NCBI RefSeq assembly: GCF_002105155.1
Contig: NW_019028981.1
Location: 1,156,501 to 1,220,500, forward strand
Direction: 5' to 3'
Source of the DNA: Lobosporangium transversale
Lineage: Eukaryota > Mortierellomycota > Mortierellomycetes > Mortierellales > Mortierellaceae
Length of the DNA: 64,000 bases
Part shown: positions 6,049-24,202 of the stretch, one piece after another
Layout: every line of letters begins with the position of its first letter
How positions within the stretch are numbered: position 1 is the stretch's first letter
The notes under the pieces: model-generated
The model's input: the letters and a program-made list of their open reading frames with translations, nothing else
Databases searched by the model: none
Told to the model about the DNA's origin: nothing
Made by a program: the position numbers and the translations under genes

Positions 6049-9000
6049 TTAGAACAGACCCACAACGTTGCCTGTTTCAAAATCAATATCAACATCGTAG
6101 AAGCATGGACGAGTAGGAAGACCAGGCATAGTTTGCATCGCTCCACAAAGTGGGTACAAGAACCCTGCTCCAACCGATGCACGGATATCGCGAATAGGTA
6201 TCTTAAATCCTACAGGTCGATTCTTCAACTTGGGGTCGTGTGATAACGACAAATGCGTCTTGGCCATACAGATGGGTAAATTACCAAAGCCCTAGATTGT
6301 TCAAGTTAAAAAAAAGCAATCGTTGATGAGTAACAAACCAGCATTGAATATCGATAGCTCCTCGCGTCTCGCGTAATATATTATTACCTGACGAGTGTAG
6401 GTTGCAATCTTCTCCTTGGCCAAGTCTGAAAGTTCAATACCATCAGCTCCATACATCTCCTTTGAGATTGTTTCGATCTTGGATGCGATATCCGACTCCA
6501 GTGAGTACAGATACTTGAAATTAATTGGTTTACTGCATGCCTGGATCACCGCCTGTCCCAGTTCCACGGCACCCAAACCGCCCTTTGCCCAGTTCTCACA
6601 CGCAACAGCATTATCTGCTCCTGCCTCCAAAGCAATCTTACGGATCAACGCCATCTCTGCATCTGTGTCGGATGTGAACTTGTTGATGGCTACCACTACT
6701 GGTACTCCAAATTTCTTGGCGTTCTCAATATGCTTCTTCAAATTATCACATCCTGATTCCAACAGTTCCAAGTTCTCACTGTTGTAAACCTCAGGTAGGG
6801 GCTTGCCAGGTGTGACCTCGGGTCCACCTCCGTGCATCTTGAGCGCCTTGACTGTTGCGACAAGGACAGCACAATCGGGAACCAATCCGCTAGTGCGGCA
6901 CTTGATATCAAAGAATTTCTCCATGCCAATATCAGCACCAAATCCAGCCTCTGTGACAACATAGCCCATCATCTCCTCATTCTCGCCAGGCTCGATACCA
7001 GCCAGTTTGAGTGCAATGCGGTCAGCGATGATGGAGGAATTGCCATGTGCAATGTTGGCGAAGGGTCCAGCATGGACAAACATCGGTGTTCCCTCCAATG
7101 TCTGCATCACATTGGGCTTAATGGCGTCCTTCATTAGCACAGTCAAAGCGCCACCAATGCCAATATCATCAGCAGTGACTGGCTCACCAGCTTTGCTGCT
7201 AGCAACCACCATCTTTCCAAGACTAATGAGAAGAGGGTTGTAAAAGAAGGTTGAATATATGGTAATATATGGTATTAAAGGCCAACACTACTAAGCACCA
7301 CGAACAAACCGAGTCTTGTTCAAACTCAAAGGCTAGAACACTTACCGTTCACGCATATCCTTAAGGTCAGTGCTGAGGGCAAGAACTGCCATAACTTCAG
7401 AAGCGACTGCAATATCGAATCCAGTCATACGTTCATGACCAGCCTCGGTGTCATTACGTCCAATCTCAATTCTACGCAAGAAGCGATCATTGGTATCCAT
7501 GACACGTTGCCAAGTAATCGTTTCAGGATCAATATCTAGACGAACGAAACGAGATACTTCTTCAGGTGTCAATTCTGCAGGATCTGTTTTATTGATGCCC
7601 AAACGCTGGAGGCGACCCAGCATCACGGCCGCAAAAACTTTCTTGCCCTTCTTAGTGGGGCAAAGGCGACTGAAAAGCGCTTTATCTGACTGGGTCTTCT
7701 CATGGAATATGCGCGCGTCGATGGCTGCAGCAAGCAAATTATTGGCAGCGGTCACCGCATGAATATCTCCTGTCAAATGTAAGTTGAACTCATCCATAGG
7801 AATCACTTGGGAGTATCCGCCTCCTGCAGCTCCACCCTTGATTCCAAATGTAGGGCCCTGCGACGGCTGACGGACACATCCAAAAGCAATCTTGTCCAAA
7901 TGAGCACCTAATGCCTGAACCAAACCAACAGTAGTCGTTGACTTGCCCTCACCCAAGGGAGTAGGTGTAATTCCTGTGACGACAACATAGCGACCATTCT
8001 TACGGTGTGATAGACGCTCCAAAATATCCAAGCTGACCTTGGCCTTGTACTCTCCATAGAGCTCAAGCTAATATGTTGGGTGCATGAATGTAAAAATAAA
8101 AATAAAATAACAGTAAGATCAGTCCTCCATTTCACAGTTGTTCCACTGACAATGCTATTAGACCTTTGCTCGTTTCTCAAGTACCTCGCAAGGCAAAATC
8201 CCCAGTTCATCGGCAATGAATTTGATAGGTTTAGGCTTCTGAGCCAAGGCAATGTCGATGTCGTTAGGGACGGGGTCCAAGAGCTGCAATGGTAGAGGGT
8301 TAATGGTGCGGTGACGACCTTCATTCAGGAAACGGACAGCTGAAAGATAGGTATTCTGCATCAACATGGCCACAGTCATGGGACCAACACCACCAGGGAC
8401 AGGGGTAATATGACCGGCGCGCTGCGATGCAGTAGCATATTCCACATCTCCAACCCAACGGATTCCAGCCTTCTTTGTAGAGTCTAGTTTTTGAGTAGGA
8501 AAAGACGTTAGTAAATTTCTTCATGAGATACTAAAAGAAAGTGAGATCTTGTTTGTCAATGTATGACAAGAGAAAGTTACGTTATATGCACTACCTTCAA
8601 CAGCATTAGTTCCGACATCAATAACCACGGCTCCTTCCTTGATCCACTCGCCCTTAATGAATCCAGCACTTCCGATGGCAACAACAAGAATATCGGCAGT
8701 CTTAACAATCTCGGGTAGATTCATGGTCTTAGAGTGGCACAATGTGACTGTGCAGTTATTCTTGGTCAACAGGCTAAACACAGGAGTTCCCTAGGTATAA
8801 TATAAATATATACCGATGCCACCAATGTTTTAATGCCGTTGCTACTTCTGCTACCATGATTTTTAATGCTTCCATGGGTATTTAAGGGCGTCTTTGGATG
8901 GCTAAGAATAATAGTAATAAAGGACAAAACTGGGCAACTTACAACAATATCACTGCGACCAACGACAACAGCTTTCTTGCCAGCCATGACCACATCAGTT

Positions 9001-15739: not shown

Positions 15740-15949
15740 ACATTATGGTCTCAAACCAGTCGTCGTCGGCTTCAGAGGCCTAGATTATGCCTTTGTTTAA
15801 TCAGTAATACGATACGGAAAGTAAGCTCAAAAGATAGTGCATATCATCAGTTGTTTGTAGAACACTTTATCCCTTCGTCCGTAAGAAGGACAAATTTCCC
15901 ATTACAAATGGGCTTGAAATCCAGCAATCCATGGGCATTGCCTCGGAAT

Positions 15950-15971
15950 TTTATTTCGACGTCGAAATAAA
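15950..15971. repeat. 22-bp perfect palindrome
   Basis: The sequence TTTATTTCGACGTCGAAATA plus two further bases reads identically on both strands, centred between 15960 and 15961. It lies in a gene-poor region just beyond the SINE-like pair. It could be a dimeric protein binding site or the centre of a decayed inverted-repeat element. Function unknown. Confidence 0.8.
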
Positions 15972-16514
15972 TGACCGAAAACTAAACTGTCATGGAGCTA
16001 TCCAGGCTTCTTTATTTGTGCAAATAAAAAAACTCATGAAGACTTTCGTATGACCCTAGCATCCGCTTGAGGGCCCATTGTATCGTTTATTTATTGATTG
16101 GTATAATATAGCAGTGATAATATTCGCCGCCGTAGTATTGACTTGAAAGGAGGGCAATCTGAGTTGATTCATCCTACCGCACCATGGAGCTTGACTAACT
16201 TGATCTTTTCCTGTACAACTGCGAGACTTGATTTGTCACATCATTTGCTCCCTCGTCTTCTTGCGTTCCCTTGATATACCTGGGTTGGTAAACACTGCTA
16301 ATAGAGTTTGGGTCTGTTGAAACTAGAGGGAACCACACCAACGTATCATATCCAAGGTGATACATATATCTATGTTGGAGTGAATGGTGAAATGCCTGTG
16401 TGATTCAGATGTAATGAACATTTACGGCGAGAGGATGTGAGCGATTATGAGAGCAAGAAATAAAAAGTTTGTATCCCTTTTTAAGTCCTTGGCAACAGAG
16501 CATGGGTAGCAGCT

Positions 16515-16602
16515 GTGATCACAAGTTGATTTTGGTGAGTCCGCATAACGATGGTCAAGGCTCTATCTTCCATGCACGGCATGTGCATTATTATTGTTTC
16601 CA
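16515..16602 (+). repeat. Diverged dispersed repeat, copy B
   Basis: Partner of the block at 12351-12452, in the same orientation and with the same order of matching segments, 4.2 kb away. It carries a 7-base insertion within the CTTCCATGC...GCATGTGCATT segment. No coding potential is apparent in either copy. Confidence 0.5.
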
Positions 16603-18157
16603 GACCTAGGCACCAACCATGGGAGGTATTTTTTTTTCTGGGAGTTCTTTGTGTTAAACAGCCAGACAGAAAGCTTAAAAGACATACAAGCACATCAACG
16701 GTGGAAAAAAATGTATATGAGCAAACAGTTGCTGTGCTTCTTTGTTGTCTGCACATACCTTCTTGCATCACGAGGGGGTTTTTTTTTGCAAATCTTGTTT
16801 CCTTTTTTGTTCATCAATCACTCTCAGTTGTGTGTACGAACATGCACCAGGCTATTGAATAAACAGCTGAGGCGTCTCTTTGGTTCCTATACATGTAGAA
16901 ACACATTTTGCATCGCGGCGTTTTTTTTTTTTTTTTTGTTTTCTAGGCAATTCCAAAATACAAGCGTTTTCCAATGGAGCCTCTAGAAGAAATATTTAAA
17001 CTTTATTTTGGCGGCCACTCCACAATCATAACAATCCCTAGGAAAGAAACTCAAACGCGTCGGTATAATCTCGCTTCTATTATTGTAATTTCGTATATCT
17101 TGTTGATATCTGTAATTCTATATGCATATATTTTGGCGATTGGTATCAACTATCAAATTCACACATACATACACACCAAACGACCGCCAAAAACCACCAC
17201 TCTCGCTTCTGCTCTCCCTTCATCCACAAGACGCTGTACAATATCACCATTAACAAGGCACCATCCAGTGAGAGAGGGTAGTTAGATAGCTTTTACTCCA
17301 AGCAATAAGCGCATGCAACTACATCACTCCTATCTCCGCCATTGATGCCGGAACCTGAGAGCCAACGATTATCTCTGCTTTAACGCAAAAGTACTGGAGC
17401 TGTTGGAGCAAAGAGCGACATCTGAACCCATTCTCTGATAAAAAAGAAGAAAGAAGAAAAAAAAGATTTTTTTTCTTTTGTTGTTACCTTTGACAAGGAT
17501 GTAATCACCTGTTTCAAAACTAGTTCATACACACCGAGTCAAATCTGTCAACGTATTTACTACCCCTGTTCAAAATTATAAAATTTTTTTTATTCATTAA
17601 ATTCCTCACAAAGCAAGGGCCAATGCAAAAAGAAACTGAAAAAAAATTGTATAGCAAAGGATCGACATCAACACTGTATGCTTTATACGGAAATGCTCAC
17701 TTTGGTATCTCAATGCTATCGTTTCCAATCTGCCGTTCATATGAGAGCTTGTATTTATTTGTCGATCTCTACTATTGACTTGGACAAAACCCCAATCCAA
17801 ACAAAAGGAACTGAATAAAGATTGATGTGGCCTGTGAAGCAAAGGATCGATACCAAAACTATATGAGATAATGTTAATATTCATCATCAATTTAGGATAT
17901 AAAAAGAGATCATTGTCTTCCTCCTCTCCCGCTCGTTCACTCCAAAGTCTCATCCCTTTTACCACTGCCACTTGTTCCTGTATCTTTTCACCAATCTTCT
18001 CTGCCTGAACGTTTTATTCTTTATCTATTCACTTTGGATCTTTAAACCATAAAAAACTCATCCATTTATACCTTTGTCGCTCTTTTTATTCTTTTTCATT
18101 TCTTTTCATCACCACCATTTTCCCCTTTTTTCTTTCTCTTTCGCTTAGATATCGACC
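16603..18157. other. Non-coding region upstream of the nuclease pseudogene
   Basis: ORFs here are driven by poly-T runs (for example 16919-16937) and show no family features. The last ~160 bases before 18158 are strongly pyrimidine-rich (CTTTTT/TTCTTT), resembling the leaders of native genes in this window. The decayed element may therefore have had its own promoter. Confidence 0.4.
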
Positions 18158-19256
18158 ATGGGACTGAGGTCCTTCTTCAAACTGGTTGCGGATCGTAGGG
18201 TTTTACCTTCGGAAACTGACGTGGGCACTTTCTTGGCGGCAAATCCTGACCATTCTGTTCATGTAGATCTCCTCGGTATGTTCTATTACGACATCCACCG
18301 TAGAGTCGTCCATACAAAGATGAAAAACAAATCCGCCATTGATGTAGGAAGGTCCCTGGCTCTCGAGATAAAGGGTCTTTTCAAAACAGAAAATCTGACT
18401 ATCACATTGATTGGTGACCTTGTACTGAGAAAGAAAAAGCAAGAACAGAACGACAAGCCATAAGATAAAAAAATATGGACGCTTTGGAGAACGATATGAA
18501 CACCTTCGAGAGAAACTCTCGGACCGAAGTTTGAACTCGTCCTCAAGTCATGAGGCGCATCCAGAAGGGCCTTCGAGAAGTCCACACCCTGAGCGTCCAG
18601 GACAAGAATCAGCTGGCAACAGGCCTTGCCTCTGTCTTCGATGTCTGTCTGTGTGCATATGAAGCGAACCCATGCATAGGGTGCCATAATGAGGAGAATG
18701 ATAGGACGGTGATGTCCCAAGACTTTGATTTTTTTTGCATACGAACGAGTCTGCATCCTAGTGCGACCTCTTCCACACCGTAGACGAAAGTTTGAGGTTT
18801 ACGGCGTGAACAGCGTTATTCAAGCACTAAACCTACCATCACACGAACATCTGGTGTTATTCTGTGCCATCGCGGGCAATGATTACTCAAGGAACCCCGA
18901 GACGTTGGGCTCGATTAATAATCTTCGATTAGTTCGAAAGGTTGCGTGGAACAAGAGCTACAATAAAATGCTTCAAGATTATCTTAGGGAAGCTAGTAAG
19001 ATGTTGGGAAGGAACGCAGCCTCTGAAGAAGGCCATTTCAGAGTAGCTCTCCGCGTTTTTACTTCCGGCTATCAAACGTCGGCCCAAGCGTTACCATCGA
19101 ACAATGAGTTCGATAACTTCAAGCAGCGTCTACTCAATGGAAGGGGTCTTCGCCATAGAATGGCTCAGCAAAGGTGAACGCAGCGCCGCAGAACGTAAGA
19201 AAGCTCAAGCTATAGTTTTGGCCTTGAAACCAGACGTCCCCTATACTAATCGTTAG
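18158..19256 (+). pseudogene. FEN1/XPG-like 5' nuclease part of a decayed fused nuclease gene
   Basis: The start MGLRSFFKLVADR resembles an XPG N-terminal region, followed by HVDLLGMFYYDIHRR. After a frameshift near 18415 come PCTEKEKARTERQAIR (matching the FEN FDGxPxxxKxxTxxxR element), then NEENDRTVMSQDFDFF (the VxSxDxDxL acidic motif) and FCAIAGNDYSRNPETLGSIN (matching GCDYTPGIPGIG of FEN1). These motifs appear in the correct family order. The gene is broken: in-frame TAA at 18466, TGA at 18532, a one-base shift in the T8 run at 18727-18734, another shift near 19155, and TAG at 19254. The aspartates of the acidic clusters are partly kept. Family members cut branched DNA with two metal ions. 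The activity is presumably lost here. Coding-like sequence continues into the RuvC half. Confidence 0.7.
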
Positions 19257-21473
19257 TCCCTTTCTTGGATAGTGTAGAGACGCACCATCATTCTATATAG
19301 CGGAAGGGTCACATAGAAACCAGTTCCGGCCCATCTTTTCTGACAAGGCGAGCATATTGAATGGGCGCACAGTTGATATCAGTAACTGCCGTCAGCACGA
19401 TAGGCCGGGCCTTAAGCATCCACCGCGTCGGAAAAAGACAAAAAAGAAGCAACAGAAAAAACAAAAGCGGAAGCACAAAGGCAAGAAGCCCCACAGGGTT
19501 AAAAAAGAAGGTGAACCAATTAGGAACTTGAAGGATGCTACGAAGGTTGATTACAGCTACAGTAGTAAGCACCTTATCAAGGCCTTAACAACTGAGTCCC
19601 TCAAGGCTTCCATGGGCAAGGAAAGGCAGACTGGACGCAGAAGAAAGGGATAATATTGCAAGCCAGATCCGAGGGGCAGTTGTTATCCTCAACCGACTAC
19701 GCCGCTATGCATACTGGGCGATTGCCTTGGACATTGAGAGGATCATGCGGCTACCAGGGGCAGCAAGGTCGAGGAAAAAGGCACTGGACGAGGTCTTGGA
19801 TAGCACTGACTATTCCTTCCGTCCCGCCACCCTTCTTTTAAGTGATCAAGGTGGCCCCAATTCAGCTTACGCGAGGGCAAAAAAACAAGGAAGGGCCGTA
19901 GAAACGCCCCACTATCTCCTCGCTTATGAACATTTCAAGGCCACCACTGAACTTTCTCCAATAAAGGAAATAGACATCACATTGGGGGACGTACAAGGCT
20001 TTGATCCCAAAAAGACCTCGTTTCCAAGAGCGACAGAGCTACTAATGGGCCAAGTACAGCCATCATTAAGGCAGCACTACAGGAACGCAATGGTATAACC
20101 TTGTGTAGGGTATTTTCATGCATATTCTGCAATCAAATGCTCTCTATTCAGACTCTTCTTTTTTTCTAATTTCGATGTCGAGAAAACTAACGAAGACATG
20201 GGCGATATTGAGTTTTTTTTGCGGGAGAACAAAGAAGTGGAAAATGCTTAGGCTTCCCTACGTCTCCCTGGTCACTCAAATATGTGTATCTGTCTGAGCA
20301 CGCCCTAGTTGGCATCCTCTGGGCGAACGAAGATACCAAGCAGCTGCTGGAGCGTATTCTGCCTCTCAACAATCCTTCCAAGACTGCAATGTTTGAATGT
20401 GTACAGGGAACAAAAGGGTTTTTGATACAGGCTCTCTTTTGTGACATTGGAGGTGATGGATATCGAGACAAAGTATCTCTACAGTCACAAGACAAAGAAA
20501 TAACTCAAAGGAGCGATTTCTACTAACGGTCTTGTTCTGAATCTACTTGCCTATGACACAACCCAGACGAAGAGACAGCGGCAGTCTGACGTAGATGAAG
20601 AAGACCCCAGTCAGGAATTGGGGCTTTCCCAAGGATTCCTTGACACGACGTGTTCAAAGGCAGCTGCTGAAGGCCTGACAGATGAAGGCTAAGTAAACAT
20701 AAACTGGAGGAGGAGCTCCAAACTGCTTGAAAACGTTGAGCTCACATTCAACGAACCAGGGCGATGCCCATCCGCAAGCACCACAACTATCGTCGGATGC
20801 GATCCTGGTATTGTTAATGCCCTTACGTTTTCCTCGCTGGACCCCCACAACTCTAATTTGCGGCAAACGGTAAAGGTGAGAAGCAGGTTCTTGTACCTTC
20901 CCGTCCTCCGCTTCAATCACCTACTGAACAAAAGAGGTGTGAAAAAGGAATGATTGAGGTTGCGAGCGCCATCCCTGTATTTGGAAGGGATACGTACAAT
21001 GGGTGCTTCCAAAGGATGAGCGAGGAGTCCCAGACACAGACAGAATCAAAGAAGTTGGATGTGCTTCAAGAGTTCTACGAGTCCAGATGGTACCCTATAA
21101 AGAGACACCTTGTCACACAGGTATGACTTTTTTTAAAAAAATAAGAAAATCTGGAAAGCCATAGAACCCTTGCTGATAAACGACTGTCATTTGAAACGCT
21201 TAGGTCAAAGCACGAGGACACTTCGCTGTAGGGGTGCACGAATTTAACACCAATGCCCGCTGTCCCCGATCCCTCTGTGATAGCTTTTTGGAAGCGCTGT
21301 ACCCTCGCTCTAAATATTGCCGTGCATGTGAGGTATTCTTCAGCCGTGACGCAGTAGGAGCGGAAAACATCGCAAGAATCGGTCTTGCTCAAATTGAGAG
21401 GCAAGAGAGCCCTGCAAAGTACAAACCCCCGGAAGAGTCGCCTGCTCCGGCTGCAAAGCGCGCACGACGCTAG
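19257..21473 (+). pseudogene. Fanzor/TnpB-like RuvC nuclease part of the same decayed gene
   Basis: A lysine-rich linker (19405-19500) precedes an alpha-helical stretch (RDNIASQIRGAVVILNRLRR, 19670-19730), then KGAISTNGLVLNLLAYDT (20507-20560), a segment typical of eukaryotic TnpB-like proteins. RuvC-I is TTTIVGCDPGIVNALTF with Asp at 20801. RuvC-III is FFSRDAVGAENIARI with Asp at 21348. Between them is a zinc ribbon CPRSLC...YCRAC. The final intron, 21121-21203, has GT-AG ends and joins KRHLVTQ to VKARGHFAVGVHEFNTNARC in frame. Decay: frame changes near 19630, between 20098 and 20230, near 20490 and at ~20953, and stops at 20501 and 20690. Fanzors are RNA-guided DNA endonucleases carried by eukaryotic transposons. 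No terminal repeats or guide-RNA scaffold could be defined in the 270 bases after the stop. Confidence 0.75.
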
Positions 21474-21742
21474 ACACAAGCATTTGGGTGCCGACAACCC
21501 ACAAAGAATTTGTAAGTTCTGCATATTTCCGTCTCTGTATCCTTCTACCTAATCTTTTGCCTCTGAATTCCTGGACTAACTTTAAAAACCTTACAGATCA
21601 ACAGATAGAACTGATTGGTCTTCGTTTTAATAGTGCTGTTCGATTAGGGATAATTTGTAGTTATAACACTGCATCTTTCTAATAAGAAACAAATTTTATT
21701 GATTTCCTCTGCTATTTTTACTTTCTATATCAGCAAGATGTT

Positions 21743-23380
21743 TCATGATGTAGTTTGTAGAGAAGGCATGGTTTCAAGTCTAGCGAGATCCTTGATATGG
21801 GTTACAGTCTTGCCTCTTTCCTCTAACGTTGATGATGTTGATGATGAAGCTACAGCGGTGACAACAGTAGCAGATTCAGCTCCATTTCCTGATAATGCTG
21901 TTGTTGGTGACAATAATGAGGTCGATGATAATGATAACCCCTCAGCCACATTAGCAGCAGCTTCATGAATTCTTCGGATCTTCGTTGTATGTCCAATACC
22001 GAGCTGTGGCAACCCTTTGTTCAGACCTTCAAGGAGAAGACATGCTTTACAAAGTTCATTGGAAGAAATATATCCACACCGTGTACAATTTGTCATAGTC
22101 GGCAGCTTTGTTGATTCATTAGCCTGTACCGAAGCTGAAAGCGCTTCGCCTGAATGGATAATGTCTAAGTGCAGAATAATAGTAATAATAATAAAAAGCT
22201 TGTTAGAATCTCGGAAAAAATAATAAAATTGGAAATAATAATAATAAAAAAAAAACGACGCTTACCAACGATAGCAGTACGACGGATGGCCTCCAATTCC
22301 TTCAAAAACACACGGGCATAGCCACGATAGGCATTGGGTGAGTAAATGCACTCTGTTGAGAAATAATCCAGTTTTTTAAAGTAGGCATACATGACAATCT
22401 CCTTTTCATATGTGTATTTGAATGGCTTTGAGCGTAGGATTTTAGAAGTTTCAATGCCAGAAGCATCATCAGATGTGTCATTAGTAATGATAGATGTGCA
22501 CCGTTGGAGACGCGGCAGATCACCTCGAAGAACTAACGGGTAAAATTGAATATAATTGATGCATCTACGGTTAATCTCTGAAAGTCTCATATGGAAAGTA
22601 TATATATATATATATATATAGAGGCCGAGACCATAGTGCACTTACTGTTCATCAAGACAGTCTCGGCAATATCGTCTGCATTGTGGCCAGTGACGATATG
22701 GTCCACGTTGAGCATAATGGCGCCGCGATCCAATGCTTGACGACGGAATACTCCGCAGAATGTGCAGTTGTTCTTACGCCCAATCTCTTTGACAATATCA
22801 TCCATGCTCCATCCATAGAGATCTTTATAGCTGATTATCAAAAGGGGGATCTGATACTGGTCTCTATTCCTTTTGACAGTTTCCAGTGAATCGTCTCTGT
22901 ATCCAGTAATTCCTTCGTCTATTGATAGTAGTACTAGATCCAAGCCATAGTTGTATCGATCATTCAAAAGCTTCATGACATATGCCAGGACCGTGGAGTC
23001 TATCGTATGTGAGATAATGAAATGAGTATTTTTTTTGCCTTTTTAATTTGTAGCAAGCAAAAAAATTTTCTAAATAAAAATAGGCATGAGTTATTACCTT
23101 TGCCACCACTTGCACCGATAGCTACTCTGTCACCTTTTTTGAAGAGTTTGTTGTCGACAATGGTATTATGGATTTCTGTCTCGAAAACATGGTAGAAACA
23201 TTCTTTGCAGAGTTGCTGACCTGTCTTTGGTCGTTTGAGGATAGCTCGGACAGACTGACAGAGATTGCAAGGATTCCTGAGAGGTTTAGTCCCCTTTGAT
23301 GATTTCACTCCTACTTCAGGCTGTGTCTGTGTATGTTGGTGTGCATGTACGGTTGTATCGGCAGTGTTGGTGAGATGCAT
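21743..23380 (-). CDS. NCS6: Cytoplasmic tRNA 2-thiolation protein 1 (CTU1/NCS6)
   Basis: Four exons (23380-23098, 22999-22646, 22532-22266, 22164-21743) join in frame to 441 aa. The N-terminal zinc motif CNLC...CKEC is followed by the PP-loop SGGKDST split by the first intron (Ser91 to Thr97), then [50 protein letters not shown], and the C-terminal zinc finger [16 protein letters not shown]. With CTU2/NCS2 it thiolates U34 of Lys, Glu and Gln tRNAs, using sulfur from the Urm1 relay, in the cytosol. The protein is ~80 residues longer than yeast Ncs6 because of a hydrophilic ~33-residue N-terminus before the first cysteines and a Ser/Ala/Thr-rich C-terminal extension. Intron 2 carries a TA microsatellite. 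The identity is firm; the start is the only ATG before the zinc motif. Confidence 0.95.
22599..22620. repeat. (TA)11 microsatellite in an intron of NCS6
   Basis: Eleven uninterrupted TA units lie in the intron between exons 2 and 3 of the minus-strand gene. A similar shorter TA run lies at ~28977-28995 in another intron. Confidence 0.9.
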
Positions 23381-24202
23381 TCTGGTCAGTATAGAATGGG
23401 TGGTGAGTCTTTTTTTTTTGTGTTCAAGATTGCAGATCAGTTTGCCTCGTTACTTTTTTTATCAAGAAAATTAATGGTCACATGCATTCCCATCAATTTG
23501 AAGAATCTTTTATTTATGGGCATTATATAAAGTTCGACTACTTTAATTTGGTAGAGCCATCATCTCATAGAACCCAACCATGTCCGATCGATTAATTGAT
23601 TGTCCAGGAGAATGACATGGTTGAAATACAAGGCTTTGTTGGGGAGTGAACATGTAAAGTGCACACGATTGTATGCCATGCATTCGACTGTTTGTGCTGG
23701 CTGTACCACCCATTCGAATAGATGATAACTAAATCAGTGGACAGACACATTTACTCACACACAGCTGCTCTTTATTCCAGAACAAGACAGTTGACAGACA
23801 TTCAAAATGTCTGTTGCATGTGTACAGTGGACAGTGCACAGTGCATGTGTAGCGATTGTATTTTGTGCCCATCCATTACTGAATAAAATAGAAATATTAC
23901 CATTGGTCCTGCAAAATCGTCTGTGGAGTGGTTGAGCACTCACTCTTCTCCAAGTCATTTCTCACACACCCTCAGTATTTTTTTTTCTTCTTACCATTCA
24001 TCTCCGCCACCCATCGTTTGTCCTCTTCTCAATTCCTTCTCTTCCCTCTTTCCTTTCCCTTTTGCCACAGAAAAAGCGGCATCCCGTGTCCGTGTTCATC
24101 TTTATAGGCTCCCTTCTTGGTTTACTTCCCTCGTCATCACATCTCTGTGCCAGTTACAATCTCACCCGCATTTTAATTCCCTCTCTCTATTAAACAGGCA
24201 TC
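23381..24202. other. Divergent promoter region between NCS6 and RSP5
   Basis: The region separates two genes transcribed away from each other. The 24000-24200 part is pyrimidine-rich (TCTTCCCTCTTTCC), consistent with the leader of the ubiquitin ligase gene. A repeated GTGCACAGTGCATG-like segment occurs at 23821-23846. No gene is seen. Confidence 0.5.

Follow-up and report, generated by a model that had tools for sequence, protein, structure and literature searches.

A predicted fusion of a Rad2/XPG-family nuclease and a Fanzor in a putative transposon of Lobosporangium transversale

Fanzors perform RNA-guided cutting beside a short motif; for SpuFz1 the motif is CATA and the break has 5′ overhangs, whereas other Fanzors leave ends of other types (relevant passages of PMC10432273). 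The Fanzor1 group, as defined in the relevant passages of PMC10711439, carries DPG at RuvC-I and, in place of the canonical RuvC-II Glu, an alternative catalytic one located six residues ahead of the zinc ribbon. The phrase ‘Fanzor flap endonuclease’ appears in part of PMC11071296 as a passing label for viral Fanzor homologues. Among titles and abstract openings of the open-access literature, no earlier description of a fusion between a Fanzor and a flap-type nuclease was found, and such a fusion is not mentioned in the relevant passages of PMC3627910, PMC10711439, PMC10432273 and PMC11423790. Here we describe a repeat element in a 64,000-nucleotide (nt) stretch of the genome of the soil fungus Lobosporangium transversale (NCBI RefSeq assembly GCF_002105155.1, contig NW_019028981.1, positions 1,156,501 to 1,220,500, forward strand; hereafter the window). 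The window probably holds a copy of a fungal DNA transposon whose sole recognised gene encodes a 5′ nuclease, a linker and a Fanzor1 on one chain; this copy is dead. The assignment of the two halves to the Rad2 family and to the Fanzors is close to certain, and it is very probable that they form one fused protein.

The original prediction had, as its simplest reading, taken the locus for the relic of a single protein with FEN1/XPG motifs followed by Fanzor-like ones. All the motifs that it quoted can be read on the + strand, in the order given. The nuclease half starts with MGLRSFF at 18158 and continues with PCTEKEKARTER, SQDFDFF and GNDYSRNPETLGS; VGCDPGIVNALTF, the zinc-ribbon motif CPRSLC/YCRAC and RDAVGAENI of the Fanzor half lie downstream, and the stop codon ends at 21473. 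Between the halves, an intron with canonical signals (intron 1) joins both reading frames in frame, in the window's own family of copies (family A) and in a second one (family B). The family B nuclease frame ends ...CAACCCAG/GTAAGC (the slash marking the splice site), its TAA stop sitting inside the donor; the intron spans 83 nt, ends CCTAATTAG/ATTC, and the splice stays in frame into FYIPKRAKPNRYRPVF and a Lys-rich linker. In family A the join is AGAAC/GTAAGA ... TACTAATC ... TGTAG/A, and the frame is kept. By pattern, of 30 family-A copies including the window, 27 show the GTAAG donor, 29 the branch-like TACTAATC and 28 the acceptor. The GERSAAERKKAQAIVLALKP stretch, previously taken as coding-like sequence beyond the nuclease part, turns out on alignment to other copies to be mostly intron 1 read in another frame.

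Directly after the acceptor stands a conserved block of the form FY[IV]...N[QR][FY]RP[IV]F. No in-frame Met precedes it in any of the 31 rows where it was found, which makes it an improbable start for a gene of its own; the scan covered 35 rows, with the window counted twice, and the block was not found in four. Introns 2 and 3 were located by the same copy comparison. One copy, L008, was considered as an intronless, spliced form, with one 512-amino-acid (aa) frame running through both halves (L008 1890-2457). This candidate was rejected: the frame was left by a 153-nt deletion across intron 1, and because that deletion removes exon bases too, L008 is no evidence of splicing.

The genome searched comprises 42.7 Mb in 127 contigs. 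At E ≤ 0.001 the nuclease piece of the window has 86 matches in it and the linker/Fanzor piece 102, and because both pieces recur at many places in the same genome, the motifs are not a product of chance. Chance motifs were ruled out on these matches and on the profiles of relatives described below. Clustering yields 70 nuclease and 70 linker clusters, with a same-strand linker following the nuclease in 58 of the 70, at a distance of 404-567 bp in 52 of these pairs. Inspection by eye shows that the 12 nuclease clusters without a partner include five (two on C13 and single ones on C44, C59 and C69) with zinc-ribbon matches lying 1.3-2.9 kb downstream in the same orientation. Of the linker clusters without a partner, one, on C46, lies near a nuclease match of family B. 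PF07282 matches at 69 places in the genome. In the search with the nuclease piece, two pairs of matches with identical scores (C48:508245 and C50:29371; C48:481371 and C50:56442) hint at a duplicated region or at unmerged assembly copies.

Longer family-A matches are mostly 82-86% identical at the protein level, and one further locus, L072, is a family-A fragment. The family B nuclease is 26-28% identical to the window piece and about 30-33% identical to the better family-A copies; its exon is present in 15 copies of 97-100% identity, 14 of which keep the full 341-aa open frame. Four family-B loci were examined in full (L061, L062, L063 and L064). Both ends are present in the last three, which are 97-99% identical over long aligned pieces and 93-96% over some short ones; L061 lacks the 5′ end, and L062 lacks about 560 bp inside. 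Upstream of the family B gene lies a reversed piece of about 550 bp from family A's RuvC exon (83%; L063, reverse complement, 1754-2336 against window 20887-20281), from which it seems that one Fanzor element either captured another or was inserted into by it.

A profile of the fused proteins picks out a third, distant and decayed lineage at L070 (1728-4929), where nuclease, middle and RuvC parts follow in order. In this small search the nuclease part scores E 1.5e-15 and the middle a weak 3e-4; the L070 zinc ribbon is C-x2-C. A phmmer search of this nuclease piece (family C) against the PDB gave no match. Further places noted with the L070 lineage are C13:672256, C44:170334 and C59:207647. 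The same small profile search of the related loci L068, L069 and L071 found no nuclease match better than E 0.1. As L070 is paired and these three lack a convincing nuclease part, comparison of the sequences suggests that the pairing may predate the split of families A and B, or may have been lost in some copies.

Homologues are annotated with the halves together, as the one-protein reading had supposed, and not as separate genes: single proteins of 1008-1502 aa are annotated in four other species. Protein searches, each scoring the 7995-8000 candidates that share most words with the query, gave ten proteins: P0002 (1160 aa), P0004 (643 aa) and P0008 (1008 aa) from Benniella sp.; P0003 (1260 aa) from Podila verticillata; P0005 (1136 aa, partial) from Mortierella antarctica; P0006 (1186 aa), P0007 (1502 aa), P0009 (1121 aa) and P0010 (773 aa) from M. 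alpina; and P0001 (675 aa) from L. transversale itself. A lineage look-up places L. transversale and M. antarctica in the Mortierellaceae, to which we assume that Benniella, Podila and M. alpina also belong. Eight of the ten have both a nuclease and a Fanzor region; P0001 begins at the nuclease exon end, and P0010 is without the central nuclease part. In P0002, P0005, P0008 and P0010 the chain stops short of the zinc ribbon, and the ends of P0004 and P0001 are altered or shortened. The remaining four (P0003, P0006, P0007 and P0009) keep all seven ligands of the nuclease, both RuvC Asp residues (I and III), the alternative Glu and the four Cys of the zinc ribbon. Both catalytic sites are thus conserved in full-length relatives. 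The post-acceptor block is kept in most annotated relatives and altered in P0002. About 180 extra N-terminal residues stand ahead of the nuclease domain in P0007. Of 171 stretches of viral contigs that fit one or other of two patterns from the RuvC side, none encodes a relative; a protein search of plasmids with P0009 gave no match.

Profiles built from the relatives recover both domains. Against solved structures they match FEN-1 (E 3e-8), Rad2 (E 3e-6) and the Spizellomyces Fanzor (E 8e-4). The broken pieces of the window copy are weak in Pfam, where, with a limit of E 0.01, the last of ten (exon 4) is the only one assigned to a relevant family, PF07282, with E 3.6e-4 and 21.1 bits, under the cut-off of 26.3. 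The same family scores above that cut-off in P0009 (31.2 vs 26.3 bits), reaches E ≤ 0.1 in six of the ten proteins, and scores 30.9 bits in the spliced L063 Fanzor part. An AlphaFold2 model of a one-piece relative matches EXO1/FEN1 and then a Fanzor, in accordance with the fusion first proposed. In this single model the Fanzor fold matches SpuFz and PpFz over residues 445-1120, and the Rad2-family fold aligns structurally with EXO1/FEN1/XPG at 13-21% identity. Profiles and model agree at the family level with the FEN1/XPG reading of the original prediction and do not single out FEN1; because EXO1 and FEN1 tied as nearest folds, ‘Rad2/XPG family’ is the safer name.

Seven acidic metal ligands are found in order, the equivalents of D34, D86, E158, E160 (Asp here), D179, D181 and D233, where residue numbers and roles are those we take to apply to FEN1. 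All seven are present in P0002-P0007, P0009 and L063. The RuvC-I Asp is retained in 12 of 12 rows, with DPG reading DSG in P0004 and P0010, and the alternative Glu of HEYxTSAKC (NEFWTSAKC in P0003) in all nine rows covering that part. To judge from the GLGSF motif, the canonical RuvC-II Glu appears to be missing.

In L063 the family B element measures 6440 bp; it and its counterparts in L062 and L064 are bordered by TA, after which they start CAGT or TAGT, and their ends match imperfectly over about 16 inverted bases. Copies of family A run from TATCCC to CAGATA, their ends sharing little beyond TATC. In three copies of each family TA stands at either end within unrelated flanks, which would fit a TA target duplication. 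Some 85 bases of family B's 5′ end are common to places elsewhere in the genome; among three such places examined, L073 and L074 are units of about 200 bp with inverted ends and TA, resembling miniature inverted-repeat transposable elements, and L075 is less clear. The transposase check combined the DDE_3 profile with frames read by eye on the gene's strand, and DDE_3 was absent from L061-L067 and the window element among the matches listed (about 150 of 154 in the genome). One DDE_3 match, C58:144422 on the + strand, falls within a family-B copy of opposite orientation (C58:142916-147364) and is possibly a nested mariner insertion.

The span first proposed for the locus, 18158-21473, contains the motifs and is too small: copy comparison extends the repeat on both sides, to about 15868-21607 (Table 1). 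The 5′ part of the window copy has diverged (about 80% identity), its end being placed by the TATCCC motif. The view of this copy as a relic is upheld by comparison with L066, to which it is 92% identical in aligned columns. It carries in-frame stops, and single bases are inserted or deleted near 18402, 18728, 19613, 20239 and 20933. Larger gaps remove 12 bases near 20456, 11 near 20501 and, at 21094/21095 within the RuvC-II region of exon 3, 149 nt; a further 5 nt are gone from the region of intron 2. The Asp codon of the RuvC-I DPG is at 20801, where the window reads VGCDPG, and exon 4 is 86.7% identical to that of L066. Just downstream of the element, on the - strand (22165-23449), lie frames resembling a tRNA 2-thiolation protein, presumably NCS6/CTU1-like.

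Table 1. Parts of the family-A element copy, in window positions
Feature	Position	Strand	Basis
Complete repeat element of family A with TA at each end	15868..21607	+	Boundaries common to L065, L066, L067 and the window
Exon 1: Rad2/XPG-family (EXO1/FEN1-like) nuclease domain, broken	18158..19194	+	Frames, motifs, indels and stops vs L066, profile matches of relatives to FEN1, Rad2 and EXO1
Intron 1, nuclease exon to Fanzor exon, GTAAGA ... TACTAATC ... TGTAG	19195..19277	+	19-copy alignment (window = L001), 30-copy pattern check
Exon 2: conserved FYIAEGSHRNQFRPIF block, Lys-rich linker, Fanzor first part; one frameshift	19278..20092	+	Frames, L066 comparison
Intron 2	20093..20170	+	Placed against C2 and family B, from junction 2 of L063 and of C2
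Exon 3: Fanzor middle and RuvC-I; several indels, stops	20171..21120	+	Frames, L066 comparison
Intron 3	21121..21203	+	Donor CACACAG/GTATG and acceptor CTTAG/GTCAAAG common to C2/L065, L066, L067
Exon 4: alternative Glu (HEF), zinc ribbon (TNB), RuvC-III Asp; frame open to stop	21204..21473	+	PF07282 match
3′ non-coding end, expected place of a Fanzor guide RNA	21474..21607	+	Boundary comparison

We propose that an intact protein would comprise an N-terminal Rad2/XPG-family 5′ nuclease (EXO1/FEN1-like), the Lys-rich linker and a Fanzor1-type nuclease. Guided by an RNA from the right end of the element, the Fanzor half would cut the TA site that lacks the element, whether on the sister chromatid, on the homologue or at the donor site after excision. 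The tethered 5′ nuclease would then remove 5′ flaps or resect the 5′ ends of the break, and repair would thereby shift to homologous copying, by which the element is restored or spread. For the movement step a Tc1/mariner-like transposase would have to be supplied in trans. Guided cutting with tethered 5′ processing is put forward tentatively, at slightly less than even likelihood. The same caution applies to the broader picture of a single-protein ‘cut and resect’ machine, in which an RNA-guided Fanzor tethered to an EXO1-like 5′ nuclease would act as a built-in gene drive. If this were true, transposons of several Mortierellaceae genera would keep the fusion because it steers guided-break repair to element copying, and the protein would be a natural counterpart of engineered CRISPR nuclease-exonuclease fusions.

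The locus could also be read as two neighbouring genes, a nuclease and a Fanzor, that share one element and were wrongly joined by gene callers. The raw sequence has the look of this, with a nuclease frame that ends in a stop and a next frame that starts anew; the P0001 annotation is without most of the nuclease part, and 12 of the 70 nuclease clusters and 12 of the 70 linker clusters are unpaired. However, the stop lies within the GTAAG of an intron donor, the gap between the frames is about 80 nt, and the frame-keeping splice recurs in two families whose nuclease parts are about 27-33% identical. The conserved, Met-less block after the acceptor and the one-piece proteins annotated in four other species point the same way, as do the zinc-ribbon matches downstream of five unpaired nuclease clusters. 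On the intron, frame and homologue evidence we reject two separate genes as extremely improbable.

Other roles for the nuclease half of a fused protein have to be weighed. It might serve the movement of the transposon, acting like host FEN1 on flaps at the excised ends or at the gapped insertion site, with the Fanzor half working separately. The Rad2-family fold and ligands and the TA-flanked ends fit such a role, but there are short elements that share family B's 5′ end and lack the gene (inverted ends in two of the three examined), which suggests that such ends can move without the protein in cis. The observations fit this role and the guided-break role alike; we regard it as the less likely of the two. 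The matches to XPG and Rad2 sequences and structures would suit an XPG-like action that targets either RNA:DNA hybrids or the strand displaced in the Fanzor R-loop, widening the cut or processing the guide RNA, and this we consider decidedly unlikely. The fused domain might instead have no catalytic role and serve only as an arm that binds DNA and holds the Fanzor there, since parts of it are lost in some copies and the P0008 and P0010 models are without several ligands. The complete set of seven ligands in P0002-P0007, P0009 and L063, and the open frame kept in nearly all family-B copies, make such an arm very improbable.

Several points weigh against the reading we prefer, that of a fused protein coupling guided cutting to 5′ processing. 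Splicing of intron 1 is predicted from genome sequence, and unpaired clusters occur on both sides, as counted above. The Pfam XPG models stay under their cut-offs (XPG_I_2 at 18.3 vs 24.2 bits in P0009, with E ≤ 0.1 in two of ten proteins; XPG_I at 13.9 vs 24.9 bits in L063), the cut-off being a threshold of sensitivity and not a defining property. The first zinc-ribbon pair is C-x4-C and not C-x2-C in families A and B and in the annotated relatives covering the ribbon. The AlphaFold2 model has a predicted template modelling score of 0.49, for which reason its relative domain placement is not informative. A search with joined flanks found no empty site for two family-B insertions. At two right ends no clear guide-RNA fold signal was seen against shuffles (z +1.46 for L066 and -1.30), single folds being a weak test. 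Exon 1 variants in 22 family-A copies show no third-position excess (27/23/31 shared variants), and these copies therefore seem to have drifted neutrally after insertion. The resection role is suggested by analogy with EXO1 and FEN1, and because other Fanzors leave blunt or 3′ ends (relevant passages of PMC10432273), a 5′ overhang is not a given here.

Fanzors and TnpBs have been studied as single guided nucleases, with the step that turns a break into element retention left to host repair. A lineage whose Fanzor chain itself includes a type of nuclease that processes 5′ ends makes the question of retention directly testable, and could serve as a natural model for the design of RNA-guided nucleases with biased repair outcomes. 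It would also represent a domain fusion in Fanzor evolution that is kept across several genera of early-diverging fungi.

In its DPG, alternative Glu, PF07282 ribbon, RuvC-III Asp and fold, the Fanzor half resembles Fanzor1 proteins such as SpuFz1 and PpFz1, as far as the relevant passages of PMC3627910, PMC10432273 and PMC10711439 describe them. The element is TA-flanked, and no transposase was found in it, as is the case for some Mariner-type Fanzor1 elements in the relevant passages of PMC3627910. The same passages describe the PGv-1 mariner element, in which a second nuclease likewise travels with a Fanzor1; there it is a GIY-YIG nuclease encoded as a separate protein beside a transposase, whereas here a Rad2-family domain is part of the same protein in an element with no transposase found. 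An added domain in a fungal Fanzor is known from PpFz1, whose FRI is, in the relevant passages of PMC11423790, a cyclophilin-binding insertion in RuvC and not a fused nuclease. Unlike SpuFz1 and PpFz1, the fusion has about 340 extra N-terminal residues forming the Rad2-family nuclease, a Lys-rich linker and the C-x4-C first zinc pair. Unlike EXO1, FEN1 and XPG, its nuclease shares a chain with a Fanzor and travels on a transposon.

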